The notes under the pieces are model-generated. The model was not told where the DNA came from and did no database searches. It saw nothing but the letters and a program-made list of their open reading frames with translations. The translations under genes and the position numbers were made by a program. From contig CAJNDT010004879.1 in NCBI GenBank assembly GCA_905221615.1, positions 186,001-250,000 on the forward strand: DNA of 64,000 nucleotides. The letters are read 5' to 3'. This DNA comes from Symbiodinium sp. CCMP2592 (lineage: Eukaryota; Sar; Dinophyceae; Suessiales; Symbiodiniaceae). Within the stretch, counting starts at the first letter, position 1. Every line of letters starts with the position of its first letter. This document shows positions 14,166-35,282 of this stretch, in pieces.

Positions 14166-14193
14166 AGAAGGTACGGCTGTTTGGGCCAGTTCT

Positions 14194-14260
14194 CTTGATA
14201 CACGCTTCGTGAGTTAGGAATGTGCCGAAATGTTTCGGCTCTGTAGCTCTGCTTTCTGTG
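14194..14260 (+). repeat. Terminal repeat A1 of element 1
   Basis: These 67 bases beginning CTTGATACACGCTTCGTGAG recur at 21050-21116 without a visible mismatch. This is the left end of the element; the ORF1 start codon lies 12 bases beyond its right edge. Confidence 0.9.
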
Positions 14261-14271
14261 GTCCGTAGGGA

Positions 14272-14850
14272 ATGGCCGGGCCCTTGGTTTGCTCTTCCTG
14301 CAATCGTTGGTGGAGTACTTCAGGGGCACCAGTTTGTGGTATTTGCAGAATTGCACGGGCCATTGCGGTTCTACCACTTGATTCCCGGGTCAATAACACA
14401 AACTACGATTTGGCTACTTCTATTCTGGAACGCGCGCTGGGGGAAGTGAATTCTTGGCTGGCTGTCCCACTAGCAGAGGCCCCAGAGATTGTGGAACACC
14501 CTATTTCCCATCCTCCTGAATCGGGAGTGGCGGAGAAAGATTGTGATTGGGGAGAGAAATCTCCTAAATCTAGGGATTCTGGAAAGGACAAACGTTCCGA
14601 TCGTCATCTAGAGAAGCGGAGCGAAAGGCGAGAGGAGAAGCGACAGCCACCTCCGCCTCCACCTGCACGTTCAAGAAGTGCTAGGGCTTATTCGCCATCG
14701 CTTGCTAATCAGTCTGGTTCTGTGGAGGGGCCCATTGGACAGGAGCCTTCAGGATCTGATCGTGTCGGTCGGTGCCACAAGAAGAACAAGGGTAGGAAAC
14801 ATCGTGAACGAGGCGAAGCGTACAAGGCTTGGAGAAGAGGTGAAGAGTGA
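14272..14850 (+). CDS. ORF1, zinc-knuckle-like plus charged protein of element 1
   Basis: This 192-codon ORF opens with ATG just inside repeat A1. The first 25 residues contain two Cys pairs, CSSC and CGIC, spaced about 13 residues apart, resembling a small zinc ribbon. The middle is acidic. Residues 95-192 are highly charged with many Arg, Lys, Glu and Ser, plus a run of prolines, typical of disordered nucleic-acid-binding regions. It ends at 14850, a few bases before the gag-like ORF, in a different frame. The function is unknown; a nucleocapsid-like or accessory role in the retrotransposon particle is an inference. It could equally be the N-terminal part of gag joined by frameshifting. Confidence 0.6.
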   Translation: MAGPLVCSSCNRWWSTSGAPVCGICRIARAIAVLPLDSRVNNTNYDLATSILERALGEVNSWLAVPLAEAPEIVEHPISHPPESGVAEKDCDWGEKSPKSRDSGKDKRSDRHLEKRSERREEKRQPPPPPPARSRSARAYSPSLANQSGSVEGPIGQEPSGSDRVGRCHKKNKGRKHRERGEAYKAWRRGEE

Positions 14851-14870
14851 ACGGCTCCGCCAACAACCCC

Positions 14871-16289
14871 ATGCCACCCAGAATTCGTCCAGCAGCTTCC
14901 AGGAGATCAATCCCGAAACCCAAGTCAAAGGGTAAAGCTACCCCCGGTGGGAGACGGCAGACGCCCCGACGGCCAAGCAAAGCGCCCAAGGGGGCAGATC
15001 TATCTGCCGGCTGGATTTCCTTAGAGAACTTCAAGGCCAAGATCGGTGAACAAATCCATTTGCGGGGAACTTATCAGGGGAAGCCAGCAGAATGCATTGG
15101 TCAAGTGGAAGCTTTGATTCACGACGCCGAGGGTTCATGGATGCGCCTTTCTCTCACAGGGAGTCCCAACCCAGAGATTCAACAGTGGAGACAAGCTCAC
15201 ACCGGAGAGTTTTTTGCGAATCACAAGCCCCTTGCGAAACCTTTGAGTGCCGAGGTCGAGGGGTTGTTTTGTGTTCAAGACGTGAGAGAAGTAGACCCGT
15301 CATTAGGGTGGAAGTCAAATCTGATAGATCTCATACGGCAAGGAGCAGGATTGCAAGGTCTCGAAGCGCTAGCCCAGGACATGGGATACGGAGCGGGAGG
15401 AGTAGGCCCCAATCCTCCTCCTGCCCTAGAAGCTCCGACTCCCGCAAAGGTTCCACCCAAACGGTTGAGAGGAGCCGCTCGAGTGAAAGCAATGTTGCAA
15501 CAGAGTCGTTGGTCTTGGACAAACTCATCTCTAGACCCCCAGTTCAAAAGGCCCAAGATCAGTTTGAAAAGGAAGCGAGAGGCCAGCTCCAGCAGCTCCA
15601 ATTCAAAGCTGAGCCTCTCAGATGCGGATTCCGATCAGGAAGACTTGTTTCCCGAGGAGGCTCAGGCGAAACACATCGCGCGCAAGTGTCCCGGCTTGCT
15701 CGCCCGATATGCAATGCGAACAGCTCAGAAAAGGCTATGCATGGGAGTGGGAGAGGATGCCAAGAACAGCGAGGTGCAACCGGTGTTTGTCAAGTATTTT
15801 CGTCAGGTGTTCCTTCCGTCGTGCAATTCGGCCCCCATGAGACGAGAGTACCTTACATTAGCGACGTGCGTGGATTCTATTGTCGAGGGCAGTGTTTTGA
15901 AGATGGTGGATTACGCCGTCCAGCGTATGAAAGCCCTAGAGCAAATAGCCCAGGGATCTGCACCCCACCTCGCCAATCGCTTGGAATTAATCCCCACCGA
16001 AGTCTCAGCCTTGGCATCCACCGAAGAAGCACGCTCAGCCGCACAGGAACAAAGGCGAGAGGACAAAGCCAAGGCCTCTTGGACACCACGCGGAAAGGGG
16101 AAGTGGGATCAGTCATGGGCAAACCGAAATTGGGAAGAAGCCAACCCCAAAGGCGGCAAAGAAATCAGGTTCGGGAAGGGGAAGGAGACCGGGAAGGAGA
16201 CGAAAGGAAAGGGGTGGTCGAAATTTCGTCCTCCGAATCCGAAGGGAGCACATGCGTTATCAACGGAAGTGGTGCAGGTCAGGGAGTGA
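14871..16289 (+). CDS. Gag-like protein of element 1
   Basis: Starting at the ATG at 14871 (the frame also allows a GTG at 14847), this encodes about 472 residues. The N-terminus is very basic (PKPKSKGKATPGGRRQTPRR). A folded-looking stretch follows at about residues 45-170. A Ser-rich acidic linker (SSSSNSKLSLSDADSDQED) then leads to a helical domain (about 265-400), and the tail is Lys/Gly-rich. This matches the general design of a gag: assembly domain, then a basic nucleic-acid-binding tail. There is no detectable sequence match to a named gag family. Its 3' part overlaps the pol frame by more than 1.3 kb. Since pol lies in the -1 frame relative to gag, pol may be made by frameshifting, but no slippery site was identified. 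Confidence 0.65.
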   Translation: MPPRIRPAASRRSIPKPKSKGKATPGGRRQTPRRPSKAPKGADLSAGWISLENFKAKIGEQIHLRGTYQGKPAECIGQVEALIHDAEGSWMRLSLTGSPNPEIQQWRQAHTGEFFANHKPLAKPLSAEVEGLFCVQDVREVDPSLGWKSNLIDLIRQGAGLQGLEALAQDMGYGAGGVGPNPPPALEAPTPAKVPPKRLRGAARVKAMLQQSRWSWTNSSLDPQFKRPKISLKRKREASSSSSNSKLSLSDADSDQEDLFPEEAQAKHIARKCPGLLARYAMRTAQKRLCMGVGEDAKNSEVQPVFVKYFRQVFLPSCNSAPMRREYLTLATCVDSIVEGSVLKMVDYAVQRMKALEQIAQGSAPHLANRLELIPTEVSALASTEEARSAAQEQRREDKAKASWTPRGKGKWDQSWANRNWEEANPKGGKEIRFGKGKETGKETKGKGWSKFRPPNPKGAHALSTEVVQVRE

Positions 16290-19200
16290 GTGATTTTTTG
16301 ATCGCGGCGGCACCCAGCCGAGTCGGACCCACCATCCCAAATTCGGAAGTGATTTCAACACCAGGGGGGATCGTAGGGCAAGCTCGCGCTTCGGCTGTCC
16401 AAGGGTGTAACACTCCTGCCCCACGGGAGGGAACCCCCTCAGCTTTGCCTTTTGACTTAGTGGGTCCTCTGAGTCAGTTAGGGAAACTGTTGAATGAGTG
16501 GGTTGACTCTGTAAGCTCAAAGGATTTGGAGCGAGATGGTATAGGCCCAGGCAAGCATTCACTCTCGGCAGAGGTTTTTCCTCTGCCTGTGCCGGAGAGG
16601 GATGCCCTCTCAGAGCACTCTGAATGGCTGCGGATCGCTGTGAAAGCATTGAACTGGTTGTCAGTTGGGAGGTTCGATCAGACCAAACGAAGCCTAAGTG
16701 AGCGCCAATCCTCCTTGTTGCAAATCTTAAGCTCAAATCTTGAACATGTGACACATTGGCGCGTGCAGAACTTCGATAAAACTCCGATCGAGGATTATTG
16801 GAAAGGCCGCAGTGTGAACGGCTATGGTGAAGAAATTCACTGCGCGTCATCTTTTGCATGGGCCAACATAAAGCATAGCCTGCCCAGCAAGGATGTGGCA
16901 GGTGTTCTTGATGGAGTGGAGATTGCCAAAGGAGGGGTCAAGGATTTCCTAAAGCATCCTGAAAAGTATCTCAAACCTGATTGCGCCAGAACTTGGATGA
17001 AGTGTCCAAGAGTCATGGTTAAGGATGATCAGTGGGAGGAGGTTTCCAATGGCCTCGTGGAGAGAGGCATTTGTGATGTGATTCCTCTCAGCAAGGTTCT
17101 GCATGTGGATGGCAAACCCATCCTTGGCGGCCTTTTCGGCGTTCCCAAAATGGAGGAGGCAGAGGGCATTCCAGTGTTGCGTCTCATCATGGATCTTCGA
17201 CCCATCAACCAGTGCTTTGAATCGATTGCGGGCGATTTGGGAACTCTTCCTATGTTGAGTCAGCTGTTTCCGCTAGAAATCTTTACTGATGAGAATGTCC
17301 TACTGTCATCGGAGGATATAAAGGCAATGTTCTACATTGTAGGGTTGCCCGATGTGTGGCGCCCCCTCCTAGCATTCGGGAGGGAGGTCCCACAAAATCT
17401 TGCCATTCCAGGCGCGGGGCCGTGCGTGCTGTGTAGCAGAGTTCTTCCAATGGGGTTCATCAACTCTGTTGCCATCGCTCAAGCATTGCACCGAGAGATC
17501 GTGAACTGTGCGGTTGATAGGTTCGGGATAAGCCGAGACGCCGAAATTCGCCGAGATCAACCTCTGCCTTCCAGTGCAACTGCTTATCGTGTCTATTTAG
17601 ACAATTTCGACGTACTTGCAAGAACCAATCGGGAGGCCTCGCACCTCCTGGAGGGTCAGCTGGGTCCCTTGGCTTCTGAGCTTAGACAGGTGTATGAAGA
17701 GCTAAAAATTCCCGTCAACGAGAAGAAATCGGTGAAATCGGGGTTATGTGGTGAGATGCAGGGTGCTTTGGTGGATGGTGTGAAAGGTACTATTTCACCA
17801 AAGCCGGATAAGATAGCACGCTACCTCCGAGGCGCGTGGTACCTCTTGCAATCTCGCCGAACAGACCTCAAAAGAATTCAGACCGTAGCTGGTGGTTTGG
17901 TTTATCTTTTCAGTTACCGTAGATGTTTGATGAGTTGCCTAAACGAAGTTTGGAAATTTATCGCGGACTTCAAAGGTTGCCTCCACCAGTGGAAGGAGAT
18001 TCCACAGGCTGTAAAACGCGAGATTTTTTGCAGCATGTCGTTAGCGCCTTTGGCAGTGATGAACCTACGAGCTCCCTATGACGCAATGGCTACCGCCAGC
18101 GATGCATCAGAGTCCGGTGGCGGTTTGTCATACACGGTGGGTTTGACACACTTTGGAGCAGCAGCTGCTTCAAAGCCAATTCGGGGAGTCGCTGAGCGAA
18201 TGCCGGATGATGAGCATGTCCTGGTTGTATCTCTTTTTGATGGGATTGCAGCGTGCCGAGTCGCTCTAGATGTCGTGGGCGCTCAGGTGGCCGGTTACAT
18301 ATCGGTCGAGCCTGATGTTGACGCCAGGCGCGTGGTGGAATCGGCTTTTGGATCCACTGATTTTATTGAGTGCATACGGGATGTTTCTGAAGATGTGGTG
18401 ACTGGTTGGGCATGCAAGTTCTCGAGGGCGGGGCTTGTCCTGTTAACGGGAGGCCCCCCTTGCCAAACTAGTGCCTGTTTAAGCTCCGAGGATGTGTCAC
18501 ATTTCAGCTTGCACCAGGATTTCAACCGGATTCGTGAGTTGCTTGTGAAACAGTTTTCGTGGGCAAGAGTTCATATCATGATGGAGTGTGTTGCCTCAGC
18601 GTCAGATGATGATAGAGCATGCATTACCAAGTCCATCGGATTGCTCCCGTATGAGGTGGATGCCGTAGGTATAACACCTTGTCGCAGGACACGGCTGTTT
18701 TGGTTCGATTGGGTTGTTCAGGCGGAATCGGGAGTCACAATCACAACTCCAGCATCCACGTCATCCTGGGATTATGGCAAGGTGGATTTTGATTTAGATT
18801 GCAGTGCTCAGGACTTTCTTTCTCCAGGTTGTAAGCTGGCAGGAGGTTCCCAGCAAAAACTTCCCACATTCACCACGTCTCAGCCCAAAAAGAGCCCAGG
18901 GTCGACATCAGCAGGCCTTGAATCGTGCAGTGTTCGAGATCTAACCTATTGGGAGAGTGATCGGTTCCGTTTCCCCCCATATCAATACCGATATCAACAT
19001 GGGGTACTGGACCCAAAGCACGGGTGGCGCCTTGCAAACGTCAACGAGAGGGAAGCCATGTTGGGGTTTCCTCTTGACTATACACTGCAGTGCTGGTCCA
19101 AATCCAAACGGAAACTCAATCCTCTAGGTCATGAAGACACTCGCATGTCCCTTTTAGGAAACTCGTTGTCTGTTCCTGTAGTGGCTTTCCTTCTCGCTCA

Positions 19201-19834
19201 GCTGTTGGGGCCTTTCAAGCTTTGTGAGCCGCTCTCTGCGCAGGCTATCCAGCAGCGGTGCATGCCGGGCCGAGGCCCCGAATTGGGAAGTTACCTCACC
19301 CGCCCACCTTGGATGCGGACACAAACGGCAAAGGTGGTTGAGAATGACAGGTTGTTGATTTGTAAGCTTGGCTCCCTTATGTCTACGAGGGGCACAGATG
19401 TGTTAATCCAAGCACCCAGTGAACCCTTGAAGTCCTATGACAGATTGCGTACTTCAGTACCGTCAAAGCTCTGGAAATGGCGAACGGCCTGCAGCTGGCG
19501 TTGGAAGCCACCTAGAGAAGGCCAGGGCGAGGAACACATAAACAAACTGGAGCTTCGGGCAACCCTCACAGCGATTAAGTGGAGGATCATGAAAACGAAG
19601 CTGACAAACTCCAGGTTTCTACATCTGGTGGACAGTTTAGTTTCACTCCACATCGTGAATAAAGGGCGCAGCTCCAGCCACAAGCTGAGGAGCATTATGA
19701 GGAAAATTAGCGCATGGTTGTTGTTGTCGGGTAATTCTTGTATTTTGGGGTACGTCGACACAGGTCAAAACCCAGCAGATGCCCCCTCGCGCCGAGGGGT
19801 AAAGAGAAAATGGTCCAACGCAAGCGTGGGGTAG
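15092..19834 (+). CDS. Pol of element 1: RT, RNase H and embedded C5 DNA methyltransferase
   Basis: The first ATG is at 15092; residues are numbered from it. The frame is open from 14936, so about 1.35 kb overlaps gag in another frame and residues 1-399 (Ser/Arg-rich) may not be translated as such. RT spans about 640-960: LRLIMDLRPIN (D701), the motif A region near D742, and YLDNFD at 835-840, where the second Asp of YxDD is Asn. RNase H begins with ASDASESGGG (D1004) and resumes with NKLELRA (E1487), LVDSLV (D1514) and NPADAPSR (D1563). Between these lies a cytosine-5 methyltransferase (about 1045-1380): SLFDGIAA (motif I), GGPPCQ with catalytic C1124, MMECV with E1165 (motif VI), RRTRLFWFDW (motif VIII), and GFP with LLGNSLSVPV (motifs IX-X). 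The role is reverse transcription plus likely CpG methylation of element DNA. The family-level arrangement is reported for dinoflagellates; the activity is inferred. Confidence 0.9.
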   Translation: MHWSSGSFDSRRRGFMDAPFSHRESQPRDSTVETSSHRRVFCESQAPCETFECRGRGVVLCSRRERSRPVIRVEVKSDRSHTARSRIARSRSASPGHGIRSGRSRPQSSSCPRSSDSRKGSTQTVERSRSSESNVATESLVLDKLISRPPVQKAQDQFEKEARGQLQQLQFKAEPLRCGFRSGRLVSRGGSGETHRAQVSRLARPICNANSSEKAMHGSGRGCQEQRGATGVCQVFSSGVPSVVQFGPHETRVPYISDVRGFYCRGQCFEDGGLRRPAYESPRANSPGICTPPRQSLGINPHRSLSLGIHRRSTLSRTGTKARGQSQGLLDTTRKGEVGSVMGKPKLGRSQPQRRQRNQVREGEGDREGDERKGVVEISSSESEGSTCVINGSGAGQGVSDFLIAAAPSRVGPTIPNSEVISTPGGIVGQARASAVQGCNTPAPREGTPSALPFDLVGPLSQLGKLLNEWVDSVSSKDLERDGIGPGKHSLSAEVFPLPVPERDALSEHSEWLRIAVKALNWLSVGRFDQTKRSLSERQSSLLQILSSNLEHVTHWRVQNFDKTPIEDYWKGRSVNGYGEEIHCASSFAWANIKHSLPSKDVAGVLDGVEIAKGGVKDFLKHPEKYLKPDCARTWMKCPRVMVKDDQWEEVSNGLVERGICDVIPLSKVLHVDGKPILGGLFGVPKMEEAEGIPVLRLIMDLRPINQCFESIAGDLGTLPMLSQLFPLEIFTDENVLLSSEDIKAMFYIVGLPDVWRPLLAFGREVPQNLAIPGAGPCVLCSRVLPMGFINSVAIAQALHREIVNCAVDRFGISRDAEIRRDQPLPSSATAYRVYLDNFDVLARTNREASHLLEGQLGPLASELRQVYEELKIPVNEKKSVKSGLCGEMQGALVDGVKGTISPKPDKIARYLRGAWYLLQSRRTDLKRIQTVAGGLVYLFSYRRCLMSCLNEVWKFIADFKGCLHQWKEIPQAVKREIFCSMSLAPLAVMNLRAPYDAMATASDASESGGGLSYTVGLTHFGAAAASKPIRGVAERMPDDEHVLVVSLFDGIAACRVALDVVGAQVAGYISVEPDVDARRVVESAFGSTDFIECIRDVSEDVVTGWACKFSRAGLVLLTGGPPCQTSACLSSEDVSHFSLHQDFNRIRELLVKQFSWARVHIMMECVASASDDDRACITKSIGLLPYEVDAVGITPCRRTRLFWFDWVVQAESGVTITTPASTSSWDYGKVDFDLDCSAQDFLSPGCKLAGGSQQKLPTFTTSQPKKSPGSTSAGLESCSVRDLTYWESDRFRFPPYQYRYQHGVLDPKHGWRLANVNEREAMLGFPLDYTLQCWSKSKRKLNPLGHEDTRMSLLGNSLSVPVVAFLLAQLLGPFKLCEPLSAQAIQQRCMPGRGPELGSYLTRPPWMRTQTAKVVENDRLLICKLGSLMSTRGTDVLIQAPSEPLKSYDRLRTSVPSKLWKWRTACSWRWKPPREGQGEEHINKLELRATLTAIKWRIMKTKLTNSRFLHLVDSLVSLHIVNKGRSSSHKLRSIMRKISAWLLLSGNSCILGYVDTGQNPADAPSRRGVKRKWSNASVG

Positions 19835-20808
19835 TTGAAGGTCGTACCCGAAATATCAGGAAAACCCGTCGACAACAACTAGGCAAACTCAAAGACTTAG
19901 TGATTCAACCAGCCACAAAGAACCGCTATGAATCTGCCATGCGATTATTCTTCGAATTCCTCAGGTGGAACCGGCTACCGATGCCCACCGATGCCACTCA
20001 AGTCGATCGAGTGGCAGCGCAGTACATACAAGAATGTTGGGAGGAAGGGGAGTCCAAATACGTTGCACAGGATACTTTGTCTGCATTGCAGCATTTCGAA
20101 CCCCAGCTTAAACGTAGATTACTCGAAAGTTGGCGGTTAATCCGTGCATGGCAACAACATGAGATTCCCACTCGAGCACCGCCTTTGACACCTGTTACGC
20201 TTGCCCTGCTGGCAGGCTGGTTTCAGCAGCATTTTCCTGAGCTGGCCCTTGGCCTCTTAGTGGCTTTCCACGGTCTCCTGCGAACGGGAGAGCTTTTCAG
20301 CATTCAGGCTAAACACATTGTTTGTACGGGTGATATGTGCTTGTTGCATCTTGGTCAAACGAAGATGGGAGCCCGTAATGCTAGTACTGAAACCACGTCT
20401 TTCAGGCATCGACAAATTTCGTTGTTGTTGCAAGCTTGGAAGGCTGTACATCGTCCTGATGCCCTTCTGGTCTCCATTTCCCCAACATCATTTCGACAAT
20501 GGTTTGCGCGAGCGTTGACTGCCACGGGATTGCATCATGTTCCGTACAAGCCGTATAGTTTGCGGCGGGGAGGGGCCACTCAGGTCTTTCTAGAAACACA
20601 GTCGTACGCTACTGTATGCCAGAGAGGACGTTGGTCTTCCGAGAGGACCACTCGGGTCTATATCCAAGATTCGGTGGCCCTCTTGACTGAGCTTTCATTC
20701 AAGCCAACTGTAAAACAACAAGCTTTGCTGCAATTTTGGACAGCAACTTTGAGCAGGCTTGAGCCTACCCGCGTAACGCGAAGTAGAGGGGGACGTGGAA
20801 GGAGGTAA
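19810..20808 (+). CDS. Tyrosine recombinase of element 1
   Basis: The chosen start is the ATG at 19810, which overlaps the end of pol by 25 bases in another frame; the frame is open further upstream. The protein is 332 residues. An N-terminal SAM-like DNA-binding region (about 25-140) contains NRYESAMRLFFEFLR. The catalytic domain follows: HGLLRTGELF with Arg158, a Lys-bearing hairpin (GQTKMG), LRRGGAT with Arg252/253, GRWSSERTTRVYI with Trp in place of the second His, and nucleophile Tyr284. The box II histidine is not obvious (YSLRR), as in other eukaryotic YR elements. It would integrate a circular DNA intermediate at the A/B junction without making target-site duplications. The Arg/Gly-rich tail is encoded partly within repeat B1. 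Confidence 0.88.
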   Translation: MVQRKRGVVEGRTRNIRKTRRQQLGKLKDLVIQPATKNRYESAMRLFFEFLRWNRLPMPTDATQVDRVAAQYIQECWEEGESKYVAQDTLSALQHFEPQLKRRLLESWRLIRAWQQHEIPTRAPPLTPVTLALLAGWFQQHFPELALGLLVAFHGLLRTGELFSIQAKHIVCTGDMCLLHLGQTKMGARNASTETTSFRHRQISLLLQAWKAVHRPDALLVSISPTSFRQWFARALTATGLHHVPYKPYSLRRGGATQVFLETQSYATVCQRGRWSSERTTRVYIQDSVALLTELSFKPTVKQQALLQFWTATLSRLEPTRVTRSRGGRGRR

Positions 20809-21051
20809 TCTGTTCGTAAAGTTTCACATTTCAGATCAAGGAATCGTGCACTTGTTATCCTGTGAACAGTGAAACTCGATTTGTAAAGCTCGCGGTGGAG
20901 CTCGATTTGTAAAGCTCTCTTGAAGGAGCTCGATTTGTAAAGCTTCCGCTGAGGAGCTGGATTTCGATTATGGATTTTACCTCTCTTCAGCTCTCTTTTG
21001 CTACAAGAACAATGCTTGCCATGGGCGGAAAACGATTGAGTGCAGATTCCT
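20797..21051 (+). repeat. Internal repeat B1 of element 1
   Basis: These 255 bases recur at 21190-21444 with no visible difference. The repeat starts within the last codons of the recombinase gene and ends at the B1/A2 junction, sharing the bases CT with A2. It includes three and a half copies of a 26-28 base unit, CTCGATTTGTAAAGCT plus a variable tail (20875-20970). Confidence 0.9.
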
Positions 21052-21116
21052 TGATACACGCTTCGTGAGTTAGGAATGTGCCGAAATGTTTCGGCTCTGT
21101 AGCTCTGCTTTCTGTG
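21050..21116 (+). repeat. Internal repeat A2 of element 1
   Basis: A copy of the 67-base left terminal repeat, directly abutting B1. The B1/A2 junction reproduces the joint expected in a circular intermediate (right end of B to left end of A). It is followed by 73 bases of spacer holding one more CTCGATTTGTAAAGCT unit at 21161. Confidence 0.9.
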
Positions 21117-21189: not shown

Positions 21190-21444
21190 GGAAGGAGGTA
21201 ATCTGTTCGTAAAGTTTCACATTTCAGATCAAGGAATCGTGCACTTGTTATCCTGTGAACAGTGAAACTCGATTTGTAAAGCTCGCGGTGGAGCTCGATT
21301 TGTAAAGCTCTCTTGAAGGAGCTCGATTTGTAAAGCTTCCGCTGAGGAGCTGGATTTCGATTATGGATTTTACCTCTCTTCAGCTCTCTTTTGCTACAAG
21401 AACAATGCTTGCCATGGGCGGAAAACGATTGAGTGCAGATTCCT
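21190..21444 (+). repeat. Terminal repeat B2 of element 1
   Basis: The right end of the element and the second copy of the 255-base B repeat. Flanking DNA begins with AATTTAAGAAAAG at 21445. Confidence 0.9.
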
Positions 21445-24639: not shown

Positions 24640-24690
<51 letters not shown>

Positions 24691-24737: not shown

Positions 24738-24776
<39 letters not shown>

Positions 24777-24873
24777 GCTACCAGTACTACGACTACGACT
24801 ACTACTACTACTACTGCTACTACTACTACTACTACTGCTACTACTACTACTACTACTACTACTACGGGATTTG
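24370..24873. repeat. Imperfect (ACT)n / (CTA)n microsatellite
   Basis: Runs of ACT triplets interspersed with TAGTAC- and CCTACTCC-type variants. Open frames in all directions are repeat products. Confidence 0.9.
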
Positions 24874-24900
24874 GCCTTATTTGACGCCATGTTTTCCTGT

Positions 24901-25104
24901 TTTTAGGACTTCCACGACTTTGTTTGAGGGCCTGGATGTGTTGGTATTTACAGTATTTCCGTGTTTATGCGTCTTTATCTCTTTAAACAGGGACCATGCA
25001 GACCCGAGCGCCTTAACGACCTAAAATACAGTCATAGCACCTGTCTTTAGGACTTGCACGACTTTGTTTGCCGGTCTGAATGTGCTGGTATTTACAGTAT
25101 TTCC
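24901..25104. repeat. Direct repeat pair of 60 bases
   Basis: 24901-24960 and 25045-25104 are near-identical. Both start with (C/T)TTTAGGACTT and end with GGTATTTACAGTATTTCC, with a few substitutions in the middle. Confidence 0.8.
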
Positions 25105-25127
25105 TTTGCCGCGAAAACATGGGTGAC

Positions 25128-25500
25128 CTGGGGGTGGGTGGGGGGGTGGGGGGGGGGGGCGGCGTGGCTAATCGCGAGCATGTTCATCAACATCATCATA
25201 CTCATCAACGTCATCATACTCATCAACATCATCATTGACCTGGGGTGGGGGGTGGGGGGGCTAATCGCGAGCATGTTCAACAACATCATCATACTCATCA
25301 ACATAATCATAACAGCAGCACTCAAGATCATCTTACTCATCAACATCATCATCACAACAGTACCACTCAAGATCAATGTACTCAACATCATCGTCATCAT
25401 AACACTCACCATCATCATCATAGCAGTAACAATCAAAATCATCATATTCATGAACATCATCATCACAGTGATACAAAATGTCATCATAGCCTTGAGATCA
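25128..25500. repeat. G-rich tract and CAT/CAA repeat, duplicated unit
   Basis: A unit running from GACCTGGGG through a poly-G-like stretch and GGCTAATCGCGAGCATGTTC into CATCATCATACTCATCAAC occurs twice (about 25126-25230 and 25236-25320). It continues as an imperfect CAT/CAA tract to about 25500. The G runs could form quadruplexes. Confidence 0.75.
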
Positions 25501-25705
25501 CGGACACGTCTCCTGACGGTGTCCCGTCTGACCGCACAGCCGGCAAGCATGCTTCGCTTGAGGCATGACTTCCACTCGAACCAAAAAAACCACGTGTCAG
25601 GGCGCTCGGCTCGGAGCAGTGTGTGAATGCTGAAATGTCGTCCCTGCCGTGCTTTTCTGCATGTGAATGCACAAAAAGCACGGCGTCAAATTCGCGCAGG
25701 GCGCG

Positions 25706-25707
<2 letters not shown>

Positions 25708-25747
<40 letters not shown>

Positions 25748-25751
25748 CACA

Positions 25752-25795
<44 letters not shown>

Positions 25796-26024
25796 TACTA
25801 CTAGTACTACTACTACTTCTGCTACCACTACTGCTACTACTACTACTACAACTACTACTACGACTACTACGACTACTACGACTACTACGACTACTACGAC
25901 TACGACTACGACTACGACTACGACTACGACTACGACTACGACTATGACTACGACTACTACTACTGCTGCTACTGCTACTACTTCTACTACTACTACTACT
26001 ATACTGCTAATGCTACTGCTACTG

Positions 26025-26067
<43 letters not shown>

Positions 26068-26110
26068 GACTGCAACGACGACGACTACTACTACGTCTAC
26101 TATGACTACT
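25708..26110. repeat. (ACT)n microsatellite, left flank of element 2
   Basis: Long runs of ACT and ACG-ACT triplets ending about 25 bases before repeat A1 of element 2. The comparable tract on the far side (34799-35058) suggests that element 2 inserted into one (ACT)n array. Confidence 0.9.
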
Positions 26111-26133
26111 GGAACCACCATTCCGGGCATGTC

Positions 26134-26228
26134 GTGAAGCACACTTGTGTGCGTAGTAACAACCGTGAACGGCGTAGCTGCCTTCAGCACTCTGGCTCGA
26201 CGCGACCTTTCGCCAAAAGCTTTTCTCC
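26134..26228 (+). repeat. Terminal repeat A1 of element 2
   Basis: These 95 bases beginning GTGAAGCACACTTGTGTGCG are repeated without visible mismatch at 34467-34561. This is the left end of the element. Confidence 0.9.
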
Positions 26229-26324
26229 TAGATCCTTTCGTGCCTTCGGCGGTCATGGCTCTCCCTCCAGCGACGGCTGCCGAGATGGGCCCAGGCCCTG
26301 GCGGCGGCTCGACGCACCGGTTGG

Positions 26325-28430
26325 GTGCCGGTCATTGGTCTTTTGTCGACGGACCAAATGACCGATCTGATCGACGCCGGCCACGCGGCGAGCCAGCTGA
26401 TGGTTGGCATGGTACAAGGATCGACGATGGAGACTGCGGCGGAGGTCGCGGCGGAAGCAGCGGGGGGCACCGGCGGCACTGACAGCATGCCCTTTGTGCC
26501 GACGCCCATCCCTGAGGGCGACGAAGATGCCGACGACGAGGTGCTCATGTCCCAGCCTGTGGTGGTCGACACGGCGGGGGTTGGGTCCCCGCCCGTGGGT
26601 TCCCCTGTGGCGGCGGTTCCCACCCCGATGGCTACAGCACCGACGCCTTCAGGCAGATCGACGCCAGCGATCGTGAAGGCGACGCCTCCGCAAGATTTGG
26701 CCCCACTGCCATCGGCGCCACCCTCAGTACCGGCATCGGGCACGGCGACCCCGGCGCCACAGGACTACTTCATCGACGTCGCCACCAAGGCCAAGGCGGC
26801 GTCCCTGTTGGCATCCCGGGCTGACACATGGCAGGTGGCGGCGCTGACTTCGATGCCATCCTCTGGGACGGCGACACCCGCGCACTCGGCGCGACGGGGG
26901 CCCCCCAACGCCAGGGAGATTGTGGCGGTGTTGAATGTGCAGGCGACGCAGGCTCGCCCTGACTCCTCCTCGGCGTCGGGTGGTCGACGCCCATTCTTTA
27001 CTGGCCTCGGCAGAGAACCTGGAGACGGCGGAGCCGCCGACGCCCAACCCCTACGACGGACCGGCCTCGAGCACCTCGGCGAGTCACATGGCAGCCGCGG
27101 CTTCTGCGGCGGAGGTTCCTATCACCCAGCCCCCGGCGAGGGCCAGGAAGGGCAGAGGCAGCCTCGACGTCAGCGAGTTCCTGGATCAACTCGGCGTCAG
27201 CATCGGCGGGCGTGGCCCCCGCTACGGGTGCGGCCCCCGCCCAGGCCGACTGGGGCGACGTCCCCTGGGAAAACCCGCTCCACGACCAGGCCATGGCCAG
27301 GATTGCGGCGGCGGCGGGCAACCAGGAGTTCCCCTACATCCGCCGGCCGCCTGCCGACGCCCGCCACGGTCCTCTGTACCGACGGAGGCCATGCGGGCAG
27401 AGAGGCGGCGAAGGGAGGCATCGGCCCATGAGCGGCGCCAGTATGAGGCATATGATCCGCGGCGGTGGGGCAGCACCCCGTGGACGGCGGAGGAAGTCGG
27501 CCACATTTCCCCGGCGTACTTCGAGTACAAACGGCTGATGGAGTCAGCCAAAAAGAGACGGCGGTGCCGCCACATCTTCGGCGCTTCGCCTACGCCTCCC
27601 GGGCCAGCTCCGAGCGGCGCCCTGCCCAGGCCCGCGACGCCACGGCGTGGCGAAGACCCGCCAGAGGCGGACTATACCCGTTCCTCCGACGCTTGCCTGC
27701 GGGCGTGGCCGGAGCACGCATCACGGTGCGGCACGGCAAGGAGGAACGACTTGGCTGGTGCACGCACCCATGTGCCGCACCGCGACGGCCTATCGCCCTC
27801 GGCGCAGCCGCGGCGCCCACGGCGCCTCCGGCAGCCACAAATGCCCGGCGTGCGAAGGCCTCAAGGGCACAGGGCGGCGCTGAAACCGCCCCCCCGACGC
27901 TGGGCAGCTATGCTCCGACGGGGTTTTCTTTGGATCCGGCGTTGGTCGGAGACGACGACACCCTGACGACAGAGCTCCCGGCGGTGATCAGCCAGAGTTT
28001 TTGTCACCTTTGCGGCGTTCGACGAAGATCGACGCCCGCCACAGACCTTGCTCGGAGTCGCGCCACCGCCACGGCGCCAAAAAAGAGTGAATGCATCGGC
28101 CGGCGGCGCATGTTTCTGCTTGCACCTCTCTCTCTCTTTGGTTGTCCGGCGCTCGACCCTAACCCGCAGCCATTTTTTGCCCGAACGCTGTCGCCAGCCC
28201 GGCGCTCAAGTAGGATCACGGCTAAGCTCCCGCGGCGGAGCCTGCTCCAGGCACCTTCGCAGCCTTCCTGGCAGAGGTGGAGACGGCCGGCGGTGGAGCA
28301 CACATGTCCTGGGGCGGCGGTGGGACCAGCCGGGCCGGCCTTGGCAGCAGCCGGCGTCCCCGAACAGGTCATCCTGACACTGGCCACGGCGACCCCACCA
28401 GGACCGGCTAGGAGGCCGACGTCGGCCATG
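26325..28430 (+). pseudogene. N-terminal Ala/Pro-rich region upstream of the element 2 recombinase, frameshifted
   Basis: The frame starting near 26325 encodes a low-complexity Pro/Ala/Thr/Val protein to about 26990, then the sense frame appears to move to +1, +2 and back (about 26990, 27220, 27330). Later islands such as ERRRREASAHERRQYEAYDP (27390-27450) and WTAEEVGHISPAYFEYKRLM look like real protein. After about 27570 the correct frame is uncertain. I do not recognise a domain. It may be the N-terminal extension of the recombinase ORF or a separate ORF1. It sits where ORF1 sits in element 1. Confidence 0.45.
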
Positions 28431-29617
28431 TCGGCGCAGCTCTACCTCGACGCCGCCATCTATCACCATGAGCACGTCCTGCAGCTCGACGTGCCCCCGG
28501 CCCTGAAGAAGGCCGCCCGACGATTCGCCCGGGCGGCGGTTCGGGGCATGCCAGGGTCTAAGCTGAAGCAGGCCTTCGACCTCGGCGTTCTGGCAGCCTT
28601 GGTCAAATTCCAGGCGGCACCGGAGCCCCTGGACTGTCGACGGCCACACCACGCCGTCGACGTGGTGATCATAGCATGCTGGTTCATGCTCAGGGAGGTC
28701 GAAATCGCCGGCGCCCGGGTACAAGACCTCACGCTGTCTTCGGCGACCTTCGGCGGGGGTATCACCCTGGACCTGCCTCTGCATAAGACGGCGCTGACGC
28801 GGCGATCCCTCCGCTGCGTCTGCACGGCGGTGATCCACCCGCTCTGCCCGGCGTGTGCCGCAAGGAGACACCTGGCTAGGCTACATGCCGACGGGGCCCC
28901 ACCTCGACCACCGAGCCCCGGACGAAGGCAGCGTCCATCGAGATGTTCCTCCTGGTCTTGGCGGCGTGCGGGGTGGAGACGCACATGGACCACCCCGATG
29001 GGCGGCGAGTACCTATCTTCGGGGGCCACGCCGCGAGGGTGTCCGGCGCCACCTTCTTGGCGGCCCTGGGGGTGGCCATCGCCATCATCCAGCTGCTCGG
29101 CCGATGGGCCAGCGCGGCGGTCGAACGGTATACACAGGCAGCACCCCTGACATACGCAGCGGCGGCCATACCGGCGCAAGCCCTGGCCATTCGGCCAGTG
29201 GAGGCGACCGGTAGTGCGGCGGCGAGCTCATCGCACAGCCCACTAGCCCTGCCGGCGCCAGACGAAGATGCAGAGAAGAGGCCGGCGGGGAACAGCCCGG
29301 CCAGGTCCCCCGACGCTATGCCGGAGGTTGACTTCGTACCGGCCCCCCTTAGACCGGCGGCAGTTGCACAGGTGGTTGGTGAGAACACGACGAAGTTCAT
29401 CATGAACGCCCGGTCCAAGGTCGTGCACCTCCCCGGCGCCGACGAGGCGGCGACCGAAAAGCACGAATGGGCGGCGAAGTGCGGTTGGCCGTACGGCAGA
29501 GGTGCTTCCCCGTGGTGGCGATTGACACGGCGACGGAGGTGGGGTCTTCCGACGGAAGCTCCTCCTCCTCGTCCGGGGGGTCGACATCTGATAGCGACTG
29601 AGCTGCGACGGGGTTGA
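28431..29617 (+). pseudogene. Tyrosine recombinase of element 2, one frameshift
   Basis: The N-terminal helical domain (ALKKAARRFARAAVRGM) leads to CWFMLREVEIAGARV, the first Arg box (Arg at 28692), then LPLHKTALTRRSLRC and a Cys pair cluster (CVC, PLCPAC). A frame change between about 28870 and 28940 is needed to reach GGHAARVSGATFLAALG (His 29027, Arg 29036), LLGRWASAAVERYTQ and nucleophile Tyr at 29129. Unlike element 1, the His of H-x-x-R is present. A Cys-Gly-Trp-bearing tail follows (KHEWAAKCGWPYG). The role is the same as in element 1: integrating circular element DNA. The catalytic set is complete if the frame is joined. The frameshift makes this copy defective unless it is a sequence error. 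Confidence 0.75.
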
Positions 29618-29635
29618 AAGAATGCCCCTTCTCCT

Positions 29636-31020
29636 TTGCACACTCGACGGTCGGCTGCCGAGCTCGCGCTTGGTACTCTTACCGACGCAGTTTTGGGATC
29701 ACCCGACGCCCCCCCTACTACCCCTGCCATGGCTGGCGCGCCGGCGGCTGCTTTCCCAACGGTGGCGGCGGCCATGCCGTCCCTGGACGACCTCATCGTG
29801 TCGGCCGGCGCGGCGCCGGCGATCAAGGACTATATCGCGGCACGGGGGATATCATCTACACCGACGCTCGCACTCGTGGCCGAGGACACGGCGAACTTCG
29901 TGGCGAAGTTCGTTCAGCCATTCCTGTCCGGCGTGAACCTGGCCGGCACCGAGCACAAGGCGGCGCCCGGCAGCGAGGATGTGACTCAGGCGGTGCTGGT
30001 ACACCTCTTCACAGAGGCCCAGCGGCAATGGAAAGCGGCGACGGCACTGCCGATCGCCACTCCGGCGCCCCCGCCCGCGGCCGCACCTGGGGGGCTTGCA
30101 CCGGCGGCCACATCGATGGCCGACGAGCGCCCTCCCAAGCACTTCGCGCAATGGTCGGCGCAAGTCAATGCCTATGAGGCCAAGACCATCGACGGGGTGA
30201 AGCGCCGCTTCCCGGCGGAACGCCTCCTCGGCGCTGAAGAGGTGCTGGCCCGCCTCCGGCACGAGCACACCAAGACCAAGGACTACAAACCCCTGGGCCT
30301 CGGCGAGATTGTCTCGCGACGCACTTGGACGTCAGGGATGGACCTGAACACCATCTCGGCGAACAAGGCGACGAGCTCGGGCAAGGCCCTTCGCCTGGTC
30401 GACGGCGCCCTGGTCACCGAGGAGTCCGACGAGTGGACCCCCAAGGGCATCATGCTCACGCTCGACGGGATCGAGGCGGCGAAGTGGGCCTGGATCATAT
30501 GCGGCTGTGATGAAGAACGGCGCGTGGAGCGCTTCACGAGAAGGCTCGGTCGCGACAGGCGACCATGCCGGCGATACACTCCTTCTGGGCCGACTCCATG
30601 TGGAAACTCTGCGCCGCCATGCGGCGCGGCCTCACCTTTGGTGCAGCAGCCGCGGCGATAATGGACGACGCGGCCTCGTGGAACGAGCACGCCATCGCCC
30701 ACTCCACGGCGGCCGCCATGAAGAAGCAGGTCCAGATGACCAGGGAGACCGGCGCGCCGAATCCGACGGTGACCGAGACACACCAGGAGATCGACGACGA
30801 GGCGGCGGACAGAGCTGGAACACCTGGAGCGGCGCCAAGCGCAACCAGCATTGGGATGAGCCCCAACAGCACGGCGGTTGGAAACAGTCCGGCTCCCAAG
30901 GGTCCACCGGCGGCGCTGGAGGTTGGAAGAAGCAGCGCTAGGGACAGCACGGGGCCCCGCCCTCCGACGCACCCGAGGGTGGGGTACCCGACCCGGCGCA
31001 GAAGCGCCCCCGCCTCCAGC
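29636..31020 (+). pseudogene. Gag-like protein of element 2, frameshifted near 30520
   Basis: The frame from about 29636 encodes a Pro/Ala-rich start, a helical region (PSLDDLIVSAGAAPAIKDYI; ALVAEDTANFVAKFV), a Pro-rich hinge and a charged helical domain (MADERPPKHFAQWSAQVNAY ... KTKDYKPLGLGEIV) to about 30510. The sense frame then shifts and continues as MWKLCAAMRRGLTFGAAAAA and EIDDEAADRAG to about 30960. No named gag family is recognised. The position before the methyltransferase and RT, together with this composition, supports a gag-like role. Confidence 0.5.
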
Positions 31021-31040
31021 ACCGGCGACCGGCGGGCTCA

Positions 31041-32085
31041 AAGGTCATACTTCTGTCCTTCTTCGATGGCGTCGCTGGCTGGTGTGGGACCTGGTCGGGC
31101 AGCCGGCGGCCATCCTTTCTTGGGAACTGGACCGCACAGCCAAGGCGGTGGCAGACTACCAGGTGCCGGGCATCAGGCACCGCGGCGACCTCAACCAGCA
31201 CGACCCGGAAGGTCGCGGAGCTCGTCGAACGCATCGACCCCAACGGCGAATGCGATATCATCGCGGCGGCCGCCCCACCCTGTCAGGATTTCTCCAGAGT
31301 GGCCGACGGCCAGGGCCATGACGGCGTCCGCGGAGGCCTGTTCCTACAGTCGGTCGAGTTCGTGCTCGAGGTGCGGCGGCTGGTGGCTCCACGACGCTTC
31401 GGCTACCTCTTCGAGAATGTGGAGATGTCCACGGCGGATGCCAAGCAGATTTCGGCGGCCTTAGGGACACAGCCCGTACTCGCCGACGCGGCAGACTTCG
31501 GCTGGATTGGAAGGCCCCCTCTGGTGGTTATCGGCGGACTGGGGCCAAGTGCGGCTGGATCCCGGGAACGGCGAGCCGCTCCAGTGGGCGCGGAAAGGCC
31601 CCTGGGATCGCCTCCGGCTCGAAGAAGCCCGGCGGGCGGCGGACAGCATGATCCTCGACGGCCTCACCTTCGACGACAGTGTGCTCTCCGGCAGACGGCG
31701 CCTTCCATGCGCCACGACGCCAGCAGCCGACGAGAACGGCCGAGCGGCGCCCAGAGGTTGTCGGGGGAAGATCCCAGCCGACGCACAACAGCGATGGCTG
31801 ACAGACCGACGACAGTTCGCGCCATGGCACTACATCCGCGAAGCTATGATGGTCGGCGCCGACGGGAAGCTCCAGGTTATTCCACCCAAGGTGAAGGAGC
31901 AGCTCCACCATATGCCGGCGGACTACACCCTCAAGGCCGGCGACGCCACCCTCGACGACCGGACCCGCCACCGCTTGATCGGCAACGGGTGGCACAGGGG
32001 GGTGGCGCTGCGCTTGCTGCTGATCCTCTGGTGGCCACCAACATGGGGACGGCGGCCTCCCAGCCGACGGGGCCACCCCGTCAGT
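31041..32085 (+). pseudogene. C5 DNA methyltransferase domain of element 2, frameshifted
   Basis: Motifs are in canonical order. Motif I is VILLSFFDGVAG (31044 on). An acidic-loop stretch, AAILSWELDRTAKAVADYQV, needs a frame change at about 31090 and a return at about 31205. DIIAAAAPPCQDFS carries the catalytic Cys at 31281 (motif IV) and YLFENVEMS is motif VI (31404-31425). ADFGWIGRP followed, after another shift, by WWLSADWG gives motif VIII. A target-recognition region (about 31600-31930) precedes RHRLIGNGWHRGVALRLLL (motif X, about 31965-32020). The domain would transfer a methyl group from S-adenosylmethionine to cytosine C5. It lies upstream of RT, whereas in element 1 it lies downstream of RT and inside RNase H. 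It is recognised with confidence as a C5-MTase; whether an unbroken master copy is active cannot be told here. Confidence 0.8.
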
Positions 32086-32110
32086 CGACCATCTCCTGGG
32101 TAGCGGCGCT

Positions 32111-33600
32111 GTGGCGCCATGGATCATGGGACCAGCGCCCGAACAGCCGACGGGACCCGACGCACTGGAGCACCTAGACGAGGAGTCACACTGGAAGGCG
32201 TCGGCGGTCTTGCCACACCCACTCCAGACGGATCCGGTCTTGGAGCCGGCGTGGGCGGAAGGCATCACACTACGCCGGCGTTGGAGACACGACCTGGCGC
32301 GCATCAGGCGCGAGGTGATCGACGAGGTGCGGCAGCTCATTGAGGACTTCGCCGACGAGACGGCGGCATGGATGGCAGCGCGCACCCCGGCGGTCCGAGC
32401 GACCTACTCGACGCCGGACAAGCCGGCGGTCACCCAGATCCCGGTCTTCTTGGAGCTCCTCCGGCGCCTAAACTACCCCGACGTGTCGAACCTCGAGAAG
32501 GACCTCACCGACGGCTTCGACATGGTCGGCGCCCTTCGCTCAGGACCAGGTTGGCGAAAGAGGACCGACGCAGGTTCCCGTCGTCCATGGAGTCCCTGCG
32601 CCAAGTCAACGCTGACTATGTCCGGCGCAAGGTGGCGGCGCCACACACCGGCGAGCACACCGACACCCTGCTGCAGGAGCTGGTCGACGAAGTCCGCCTG
32701 GGGCGGGTCATAGGCCCGGCGCGCCCACCAAAGTGGCTCCAGCGGTGGCGCTCCCGTGGGTCGACGCCGCGGCGACGCTGGTCGAGCCCCCGCCCGGCGA
32801 GGAATTCTTGGCGGTCTCCTTTGCGATAGTCCAGATCGACGAGAACGGTGACCCCAAGATCCGACGAGGAGAAGATTGGAGACGATCAGGTCACAACTCG
32901 ACGGTCAGTGCCGACGACGTCCCAACACACCACTTCATCGGCGCCTTTGTCGAGCTCGCCCGCAGCATGGCTGACGACGGCGTGATCCTGGTGTTCGGGC
33001 ATGACTTGCTCAACGCCTACCGACAGTGGCCGGTGAAGCACCCGGCGCAGTGCGGCACCTTCTTGGCCACGGCGGAAGGATGGACCTTTTGGTACCACCT
33101 GGCCATGAATTTCGGCGCCACGGCCTCGGTCTGGAATTTTAATCGCGGCGGCGACGCTCTTCAGCAACTGCTGCGAGGACTGCTGCTGCTGGCGACGGGA
33201 CACTACGTCGACGACTTTAACGGCCTGGAGTTCGAGGAGCTCGGCGAGTCGGCGAGTCCTTCAAGGAGCTCTTTGCGGCGCTCGGCTTCCGCATCAAGGC
33301 CTCCAAGTCCCAACCGGCGGCAGCCCAGCACGTGGTTCAAGGCGTCACCTTTGCCATTTCCCGACGGGGGGTCACAGTCAGCCCGACACCTGAGAGAGTG
33401 CGGCGCATTTTGGCACAGATTCGGAAGGCGCTCGACGAGGACCAGCTCAAGCCCCACAACGCGCAGAAGCTCGCGGGCAGACTCTCCTTCCTCACGCAGG
33501 CGGTCTTCGGCGGAGTGGGAAAGGCACCCACCAAGGCGGTGTACGCCCGTGCGGCAGATACGGCGGCACACTCGGCCGACGGTCTTACGACGGGACTGCG
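32111..33600 (+). pseudogene. Reverse transcriptase of element 2, frameshifted
   Basis: An N-terminal linker (32111-32560) reads smoothly in one frame, then the frame moves twice before the RT core at 32733. The core includes VILVFGHDLLNAYRQWPV (catalytic Asp region, about 32985-33040), FWYHLAMNFGATASVWNF (motif B region) and GHYVDDFNGLEF, with the intact YVDD at 33204-33215. A further shift near 33250 leads to the thumb/connection (VQGVTFAISRRGVTVSPTPE; NAQKLAGRLSFLTQAVFGG) at 33332-33580. The catalytic aspartates are complete, unlike the YLDN of element 1. Confidence 0.8.
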
Positions 33601-33614
33601 GGCGGCGCTGTTAA

Positions 33615-34190
33615 TTGTCCCTGGAGCACATCCTGCCGACGGTCCGACCCCGCTTCATACCGTTCGCCACCGACGGGTTAGACACGGCGGTTCTCTACGC
33701 CGACGCCTTCTTCCTGGATGGAGAACGGATCCACAAGGCGGGGCATGTGCCAGTGACGGCGGACGCCTCACGGCCCAACTGTGCCAACAACGGCTGGGGA
33801 TTCGTTCTGCGCCTCGGCGCTGTGTTCTACGACCACGGCGTCGTCCCGGCATGGTTCCTGCAGAAGTTCCAGGGGCGGCGGGCCTTCATCTACATGCTCG
33901 AGATCTTCGCGCAGGTGGTAGCCATTGCGGCGTTCTCCGCCCACATGCCCGGCGCCATCACAGCCTTTATTGACAACTCCGCAGGCCAGGCGGCGTTGTC
34001 CAAAGGATACGGGAAAGACCCGGCGGTGAACGGGCTGCTGGCGGCCTTTTGGGCCCTGGCGGCGAGGAAAGGAACCTTGATCCAGTTCCGGCGGGTACCG
34101 TCGAAGGCCAATGTGGCCGACGCGGTGTCTCGCGACGACTTCTCCCGGGCACGACGCGAGGGGTGGACGAGGGTCCACACCCCGGCGTAG
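33615..34190 (+). pseudogene. RNase H domain of element 2
   Basis: A single open frame carries the four expected acidic positions: VLYADAFFLDG, YMLEIFAQVVAI, AFIDNSAGQAAL and VPSKANVADAVSR. The last is the DIRS/gypsy-type tail motif, parallel to NPADAPSR of element 1. Here the first Asp and the Glu are about 65 residues apart with no inserted methyltransferase. The frame closes at 34190, 140 bases before repeat B1. It is intact by itself, but the polyprotein feeding into it is frameshifted. Confidence 0.75.
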
Positions 34191-34329
34191 ACGATCATGC
34201 ACATCCTGGCGAAGGCGGTCGACGACATCGTCGATGCCTATGCGGTGGATGCGGCGGCGGCCGACTTGGACTCCTGCTCTACCTCCTGGTTCTCTGAGCC
34301 GGCGCGTGGTGGGGCAGGGTGCGCCGGAT

Positions 34330-34466
34330 GGTGCTGAACTGCGCGCCCGGCGCCGGCTGTAGGACTTGAACCTGCACGCCGAGCGGCACTTTCAGCGCTA
34401 CACATCCACACGACGAAAAAGTATGTCGTCCGTTTTGGCGTCAGAGCTAAGAGTGCGACGGTTGTT
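34330..34466 (+). repeat. Internal repeat B1 of element 2
   Basis: 137 bases, repeated at 34612-34748 with three visible substitutions (about 98 percent identity by eye). It abuts A2 exactly at 34466/34467. Confidence 0.88.
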
Positions 34467-34561
34467 GTGAAGCACACTTGTGTGCGTAGTAACAACCGTG
34501 AACGGCGTAGCTGCCTTCAGCACTCTGGCTCGACGCGACCTTTCGCCAAAAGCTTTTCTCC
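34467..34561 (+). repeat. Internal repeat A2 of element 2
   Basis: A copy of the left terminal repeat (26134-26228), identical by eye. It is separated from B2 by a 50-base spacer. Confidence 0.9.
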
Positions 34562-34611
34562 CACCCACGCCACCCTTTATGGGTTCGGCGGCGGTCAGTC
34601 CGCAGCGGGCC

Positions 34612-34748
34612 GGTGCTGAACTGCGCACCCGGCGCCGGCTGTAGGACTTGAACCTGCACGCCGAGCGGCGCTTTCAGCGCTACACATCCACACGACGAAA
34701 AAGTATGTTGTCCGTTTTGGCGTCAGAGCTAAGAGTGCGACGGTTGTT
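34612..34748 (+). repeat. Terminal repeat B2 of element 2
   Basis: The right end of the element. Flanking DNA resumes with CTACCAATGCTGCTGCTGCT, which grades into the (ACT)n tract. Confidence 0.88.
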
Positions 34749-34798
34749 CTACCAATGCTGCTGCTGCTGCTCCTGCTGCCACTACCACTTCCACTACC

Positions 34799-35058
<260 letters not shown>

Positions 35059-35282
35059 CCTGAACTGCCCGTACAGTCTCAGCGCCGTACATCCCGGCCA
35101 CGGGCATGCGCCACCACCCCTTCCTAATCTTGTTGCCACAACCTGTTGCTCCCCGAACGAAAGCAAAAGACCGTGTCCGGCTAACTGCCTCGGAGGTAAT
35201 CGTGACCCTCTGCAATGATGGTACGCCGGTTTCAGGGCAATGAAGCACTCAAGCAAGCCTGGCAAGCCGCCCCCCTCCTCCA

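Follow-up and report, generated by a model that had tools for sequence, protein, structure and literature searches.

A stretch of 64,000 nt from contig CAJNDT010004879.1 of the dinoflagellate Symbiodinium sp. CCMP2592 (the window, in whose coordinates all positions are given) contains two retrotransposons that each combine a tyrosine recombinase (YR), a reverse transcriptase (RT), an RNase H and a C5-cytosine methyltransferase (MTase). Element 1 (14187-21444) is built as A1-[gag, RT, RNase H with the MTase inside it, YR]-B1-A2-B2 and element 2 (26130-34748) as A1-[YR, gag, C5-MTase, RT, RNase H]-B1-A2-B2, with all modules of the latter on the forward strand. Relatives were sought in the 1.1-Gb genome to which the window belongs; element 1 and its relatives are termed type 1, element 2 and its relatives type 2. 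An earlier note, made from the letters of the window, had called both elements DIRS-like, which is borne out by the A1..B1-A2-B2 repeats of both and by the presence of YR and RT in one element (for element 2 through alignment to its relative L021). The MTases of the two types group together while the RT and YR backbones around them are barely or not related, and from the sequences this looks like one MTase lineage that entered two backbones, whether passed from element to element or captured twice from the same donor.

The order recombinase, gag, MTase, RT, RNase H that the note had given for element 2 recurs on one strand in six of the 22 type-2 loci taken from the genome (L021-L042), namely the close relatives L021-L023 and, at about 35-61% identity to element 2, L037, L039 and L040; the YR-first order was scored in these six, the L041 and L042 loci being too short for it. 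The RNase H is uninterrupted and the MTase lies upstream of RT, again as the note described: the first-Asp and Glu motifs of the RNase H are 71 residues apart in L042 and similarly close together in L021 and L041. MTase, RT and RNase H form a single 1142-aa frame in L021. In the window copy at least two frames are needed to read each of YR, gag, MTase and RT, so that this copy, as judged from its sequence, is either decayed or affected by indel errors. Its terminal repeats are 96-99% identical despite the many frame changes in the coding region, as might be seen in a young copy with indels or as a result of sequencing indels. In the Pfam scan of the window the element 2 MTase scored above the cut-off and neither RT nor YR of this element had a match; the identity of the latter two therefore rests on alignment to relatives and on the motifs read. 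The YR of L021 was matched weakly (Pfam Phage_integrase, E 0.14; PHROGs, E 0.007). Repeats B1, A2 and B2 are present in the 15 type-2 relatives taken for this comparison, the 5' ends of which lay mostly outside the stretches taken.

For element 1, the proposed order of RT, an MTase inside RNase H and a terminal recombinase likewise stood. An open frame of 1594 aa holds RT, the first RNase H motif, the MTase and then the other RNase H motifs, with YR last; YR also follows Pol in L044 and L045. The motifs SDAS and HINxLEL are 479 residues apart in element 1 and 474, 467 and 465 residues apart in L043, L044 and L045, with the MTase in between. Since the gap is 71 residues in L042, the type-1 MTase is, on this reading of the motifs, nested inside RNase H, at one site in all four frames examined, the RTs of which are only 27-57% identical. 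The distal half of the type-1 RNase H retains E, D and D motifs and aligns in register with the type-2 RNase H, at a profile probability of only 1%; Pfam RNase_H matched one of the four members (E 0.26), and nothing relevant was returned from the PDB. The RNase H assignment in type 1 rests on the ordered acidic motifs and this weak in-register profile alignment.

The genome match lists for RT and MTase comprise the best matches, and presence or absence in them is meant as among the matches listed. No clean empty RNase H site was found among three RT relatives without a listed MTase (L046, L047, L057): L046 contains a degenerate MTase, and L047 and L057, which belong to one family, contain another insert at the same place. 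This insert (L047, C5375:257850-260150; L057, C4534:230110-230420) is a cysteine-rich finger that follows the first RNase H motif in these type-1-like RT relatives; beyond the finger, L047 has a frame with a weak match to DUF4620 (E 0.0033, below the cut-off). Accessory domains may thus have entered type-1 elements repeatedly at this junction within RNase H. A programmed gag-pol frameshift is not claimed for element 1, where only two AAAGGGG heptamers lie in phase within 15901-16300.

Table 1. Features of the two retrotransposons in window coordinates.
Feature	Position	Strand	Remarks
Element 1 repeat A1	14187..14260	+	96% to 21043-21116
Element 1 gag-like ORF	14844..16289	+	called by position; no Pfam match
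Element 1 RT	16850..18050	+	RVT_1 E 0.0056, below Pfam cut-off; at least 96 genome matches
Element 1 first RNase H motif (SDAS...)	18096..18190	+	
Element 1 C5-MTase nested in RNase H	18203..19324	+	PF00145 E 3.5e-4, 20.5 bits (cut-off 22 bits)
Element 1 remaining RNase H (HINKLEL, VDS, NPADAPSR)	19325..19831	+	
Element 1 YR	19735..20805	+	Phage_integrase E 1.1e-4, below Pfam cut-off; phrog_1 integrase E 3e-11
Element 1 repeat B1	20797..21051	+	100% to 21190-21444
Element 1 repeat A2	21043..21116	+	
Element 1 repeat B2	21190..21444	+	
Element 2 repeat A1, left end	26130..26228	+	99% identity to 34463-34561
Element 2 YR, N-terminal part	28314..28899	+	frame of ORF 27456-29150; matches single YR frames of L021-L023
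Element 2 YR, catalytic C-terminal part (HAARVSGA...GRWASAAVERY)	28898..29573	+	frame differs from that of the N-terminal part
Element 2 gag-like region	29702..30938	+	several frames in window copy; matches gag frames of relatives
Element 2 in-frame amber codon, boundary of gag and MTase-RT-RNase H	30939..30941	+	TAG
Element 2 8-nt spacer GGACAGCA	30942..30949	+	proposed readthrough signal
Element 2 hairpin: 4 outer pairs, one bulged A, 11-pair inner helix	30950..30990	+	predicted
Element 2 C5-MTase motifs I-VIII (frame a; PPCQ, ENV)	30942..31524	+	PF00145 E 4.8e-5
Element 2 C5-MTase target domain and motifs IX-X (frame b)	31519..32028	+	91% to L021, single frame there
Element 2 RT	32123..33630	+	several frames in window copy; YVDD in relatives
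Element 2 RNase H, uninterrupted	33615..34187	+	95% to L021; conserved acidic motifs
Element 2 repeat B1	34323..34466	+	
Element 2 repeat A2	34463..34561	+	
Element 2 repeat B2, right end	34605..34748	+	96% to B1; terminates ...GACGGTTGTT, same in 15 relatives looked at

Type-1 MTases include those of element 1 and of L043, L044, L045, L046, L054 and L055. C5-MTase motifs I, IV (PC), VI (ENV), VIII and X were found, and PF00145 was matched above the cut-off by element 2, L021, L041, L042, L044 and L045, below it by element 1 (Table 1), and not at all by L043. The MTase shares a frame with RT in element 1, L021, L041 and L042; in the window copy of element 2 the MTase itself contains a frame change. 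All 29 PDB matches of the element 1 MTase at E 0.0012 or better are DNMT3, and DNMT3 also gives the best PDB matches of the other retrotransposon MTases compared with the PDB, although phage enzymes match DNMT3 more strongly. A tree of three groups (retrotransposon, DNMT3, phage) can neither place the root nor say which outgroup is nearer. Two scans of viral_contigs, with a reach limited to close relatives, returned no relative that would point to a viral origin of the MTase. A survey of DNMTs published in 2025 restates a 2018 report on SymbioDIRS elements, taken up below, and in its text counts the SymbioDIRS enzymes among DNMT3 (PMC12344493).

MTase and RT were compared within and between types by BLAST in one common search space, using four type-1 and three type-2 elements (nine within-type and 12 between-type pairs); YR was compared between types by BLAST as well. 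Within types, RT gave more bits than MTase in 9/9 pairs, with RT stretches somewhat longer than the MTase stretches, and the RT pairs scored 94.7-518 bits. Between types the MTases scored 37.0-85.9 bits in 12/12 pairs and aligned over their full length, whereas RT reached at most 24.6 bits (best E 0.08 in the common search space, 0.036 in the default space) and no YR match exceeded 23.1 bits (E 0.22 or higher). Comparison of profiles between types gave probabilities of 99.9% for MTase (E 1.7e-35), 51% for RT (E 1.6e-4) and 1% for YR. With RT clearly matched within types and RT and YR barely or not related between them, descent of the MTase from an ancestor shared by the two elements is disfavoured. 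A single capture in an ancestor of both elements, followed by rearrangement of the domain order, would fit the joint grouping of the MTases, the way MTase identity tracks RT identity within each type, and the residual RT profile match; it is nevertheless very improbable, since BLAST misses RT and YR between types where it finds the MTase in every pair, and the profile probabilities fall apart in the same manner.

In phylogenetic trees a branch separated the retrotransposon MTases from animal DNMT3 and phage enzymes, with support of 93/89 (18 rows, without L056, an MTase described below), 96/92 (19 rows), 95/94 (without L054 and L055), 96/87 (motifs I-VIII only) and 98/92 (LG+G4). Outgroups in these trees were three mammalian DNMT3 and six phage enzymes, of which HTVC309P was shortened to 170 residues, and target-domain columns were omitted. 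Alternative trees joining one type to DNMT3 had p values of 0.037 and 0.031 in the approximately unbiased (AU) test. The MTases of both types further share a target-domain block, RWxxD..R(F/Y)...Y, with the Trp in 9/9 and the preceding Arg in 8/9; single positions vary, most in L044 and L041. The rows of DNMT3A and DNMT3C lacked one stretch, and the block was therefore compared with DNMT3B and five phage enzymes, from which it is absent, the alignment of that part being uncertain. Two unrelated MTases are thus disfavoured by the sequences. MTases that form one clade, in backbones that do not follow it, point to a single MTase lineage placed twice. The earlier note had proposed two independent captures or a move of the domain, to be given up if the MTases formed one clade nested as in the RT and YR trees. 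One clade is what the five trees and the shared block indicate, and the backbones differ instead of sharing that nesting; the note's reading is thus supported in part, and the choice between a move and two captures from one donor calls for dinoflagellate host DNMTs.

The same or a closely related host Dnmt3 gene may have been captured twice independently, in which case the block would be a feature of dinoflagellate Dnmt3; we put this at a little short of an even chance. It agrees with the observed MTase grouping and with the different MTase insertion sites of the two types, and in the main text of the 2018 report the published architectures are distantly related by RT and the SymbioDIRS DNMTs cluster with two dinoflagellate Dnmt3 transcripts (PMC5890265). 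It requires two captures from one gene lineage, however, and the present data fit transfer between elements equally. Such a transfer, with one or several moves of the MTase from type to type by template switching or recombination of co-packaged RNAs rather than two arrivals from the host, is a tentative proposal that we hold at clearly less than even odds. One MTase grouping spans very distant backbones, and type 1 is not a clade in the best MTase trees, where L044 falls outside; yet the AU test does not reject a monophyletic type 1 (p 0.134 and 0.301) and the deep forks are weak. The MTase of L056 also bears on it. This enzyme (C3279:740840-741900) belongs to the retrotransposon group and lies in a 1285-aa frame, on a contig in neither type's RT matches listed. 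Its element is possibly a third backbone, with the proviso that absence holds only among those listed matches.

In type 2, gag and Pol lie in one frame and are split by a TAG codon in the window and in 20/22 loci. An in-frame gag ORF of 365-531 aa precedes the codon in L021, L022, L023, L025, L027, L030, L034-L037 and L040. The 8-nt spacer that follows, GGACAGCA (GGACAGCG in L021), is kept from the window through L042, though the RTs of L042 and L021 are only 36% identical. Beyond the spacer a hairpin is predicted, in which four pairs are followed by a single base bulged out on the 3' side, an A in each of five sources checked, and then by another 8-11 pairs. Of 23 sources examined, 22 contain TAGGGACAG (L028 was dropped for lack of it), and in 20 of these 22 the predicted hairpin is at exactly the same place, L029 and L032 being those where it is not; in L031 one pair is lost and later pairs are shifted by one. 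Pairs 4, 5 and 7-11 vary among four subfamilies yet stay paired, mostly through changes on both sides. The 40-nt hairpin stretch ranked 1st of 1129, 2nd of 1115 and 3rd of 1119 in stability in three Pol frames. The 14-mer TAGGGACAGCACGG occurs 185 times in the genome, against six occurrences of its reversed control; for 64 of 100 listed sites the match lists show an MTase no more than 300 nt away or a type-2 RT no more than 3 kb downstream, and the other 36 have neither among the matches listed.

This junction seems to be a candidate readthrough signal like that of murine leukaemia virus (MuLV), in which an in-frame gag UAG is followed by an 8-nt spacer and a compact structure with a single unpaired base (described in PMC4178896). 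It differs in having a predicted bulged hairpin rather than a pseudoknot, and readthrough in type 2 is a prediction from the sequence.

As a whole, the observations are best explained, with a probability of roughly 0.6, by one MTase lineage carried in two long-separated YR types and, in type 2, by readthrough, co-packaging and methylation of cDNA. A single C5-MTase lineage, nearest to DNMT3 among solved structures, would have become fixed in both types after their RTs and YRs had diverged, within RNase H in type 1 and upstream of RT, next to gag, in type 2. On a type-2 transcript the majority of ribosomes would halt at the gag UAG and yield gag, and a minority, aided by the spacer and the bulged hairpin, would read through to produce gag-MTase-RT-RNase H. 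In this way MTase and RT would enter the particle together, and during reverse transcription there the MTase could methylate CpG in the new cDNA before YR integrates it through the A/B repeats. The new copy would then arrive marked like the host genome, which may benefit the element.

Several points weigh against this explanation. The weak RT profile match between types indicates that the RTs are very distant rather than unrelated. In L056 the block reads RF, with Phe replacing the Trp, and the target-domain alignment is uncertain. The outgroups of the MTase trees comprise only mammalian DNMT3 and phage enzymes, with no host dinoflagellate DNMT among the rows, and the type-1 branches are long. 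The MTase core evolves slowly, and matches of phage enzymes to the retrotransposon MTases, mostly in the core, are about as strong as those between the two types. Catalytic residues are lost or changed in the type-1 MTases of L046 and L055, within long open frames, and the catalytic motifs of L054 are doubtful; element 1 retains PPC and the Glu of motif VI, with ECV in place of ENV. At the type-2 junction, synonymous shuffles of the first 60 nt folded equally well in 217, 132 and 50 of 1000 cases, so that stability alone does not decide the matter, and what speaks for a readthrough signal is the covariation together with the constant spacing and bulge.

Lastly, in Tca2 of Candida a similar arrangement of stop codon, 8-nt spacer and bulged pseudoknot was, according to PMC2194720, insufficient to direct readthrough; readthrough in type 2 is accordingly something we infer. 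The UAG might not be read through at all; Pol would then come from a separate transcript, from splicing or from editing of the codon, and the hairpin would have some other role. We consider this unlikely, because UAG and spacer are nearly fixed across deep subfamilies, pairs change on both sides, and the Pol frames of L021, L041 and L042 contain no Met before MTase motif I.

Ngaro elements carry YR after Pol, as in element 1, and VIPER elements carry it upstream of RT, as in element 2. The split direct repeats A1..B1-A2-B2 of element 1 resemble those of PAT-like and Ngaro-like elements, and those of element 2 resemble VIPER-like elements of kinetoplastids, as these are described in PMC6681497. 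Element 1 differs from the former in its C5-MTase inside RNase H, and element 2 from the latter in that gag follows YR. The VIPER RNase H is reported in the same source to be hepadnavirus-like (PMC6681497), which is not supported for element 2, where PF00336 gave only E 0.19 in the window and was not listed for L021, L041 or L042.

The closest known system is SymbioDIRS-Dnmt3 of Symbiodinium, for which two architectures with shuffled order were described and independent acquisitions inferred (de Mendoza et al. 2018, PMC5890265). Its likeness to the present elements extends to two YR architectures in one genome, a DNMT that shares the Pol frame with RT, repeats arranged as A-coding-B-A-B and shuffled integrase and Pol; CG methylation activity of the SymbioDIRS DNMTs and purifying selection on them were also reported there, and methylation of cDNA was proposed (main text of PMC5890265). 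The two shuffled architectures are therefore already published, and the idea of separate acquisition is not new. The difference is that the 2018 paper concludes independent acquisition (PMC5890265), where our comparison points to one MTase lineage in two backbones. Neither readthrough nor insertion inside RNase H is mentioned in its main text, as distinct from its figures and supplements, and no title or opening of an abstract among the related papers listed, most subscription papers lying outside this scope, concerned readthrough in these elements or RNase H insertion by them. The present analysis adds the MTase nested in RNase H, the UAG cassette, and a shared MTase lineage discordant with very distant backbones.

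The region of element 2 (26001-34000) has 67% G+C and a CpG observed/expected ratio of 1.05; two outer stretches of the window that were measured have about 54-55% G+C and ratios of 0.75-0.83. Element 2 is flanked by long trinucleotide repeat tracts (24300-26130 and 34750-35060). A preference for simple-repeat targets was considered and is not claimed, because the period-3 score of 150 nt of 3' flank, 0.81 for element 2, was 0.07-0.34 in the 15 relatives, where the background maximum is 0.40; one of these relatives, L038, has a TGTA repeat beyond the element end. Several pairs of long inverted repeats, up to 224 nt and 95% complementary, lie at 889-2419 of the window.

These results sharpen the reading of convergent capture: the MTase lineage is common to the two types and the backbones are not, so that host Dnmt3 sequences can serve to test whether a domain was transferred between selfish elements. 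The MTase within RNase H has an eroded catalytic site in some frames that stay open, which suggests that a domain nested in this way is not easily lost even as its chemistry decays. In a bolder version, which we consider rather unlikely, one MTase lineage would have passed among at least two and, with L056, possibly three distant backbones rather than coming from the host each time, and the type-2 readthrough signal would have evolved independently of gammaretroviruses, tying the dose of MTase to that of RT in the particle. The conserved UAG cassette bears on how the amount of a self-methylating enzyme is controlled in such elements, and it may represent a convergence with retroviruses.

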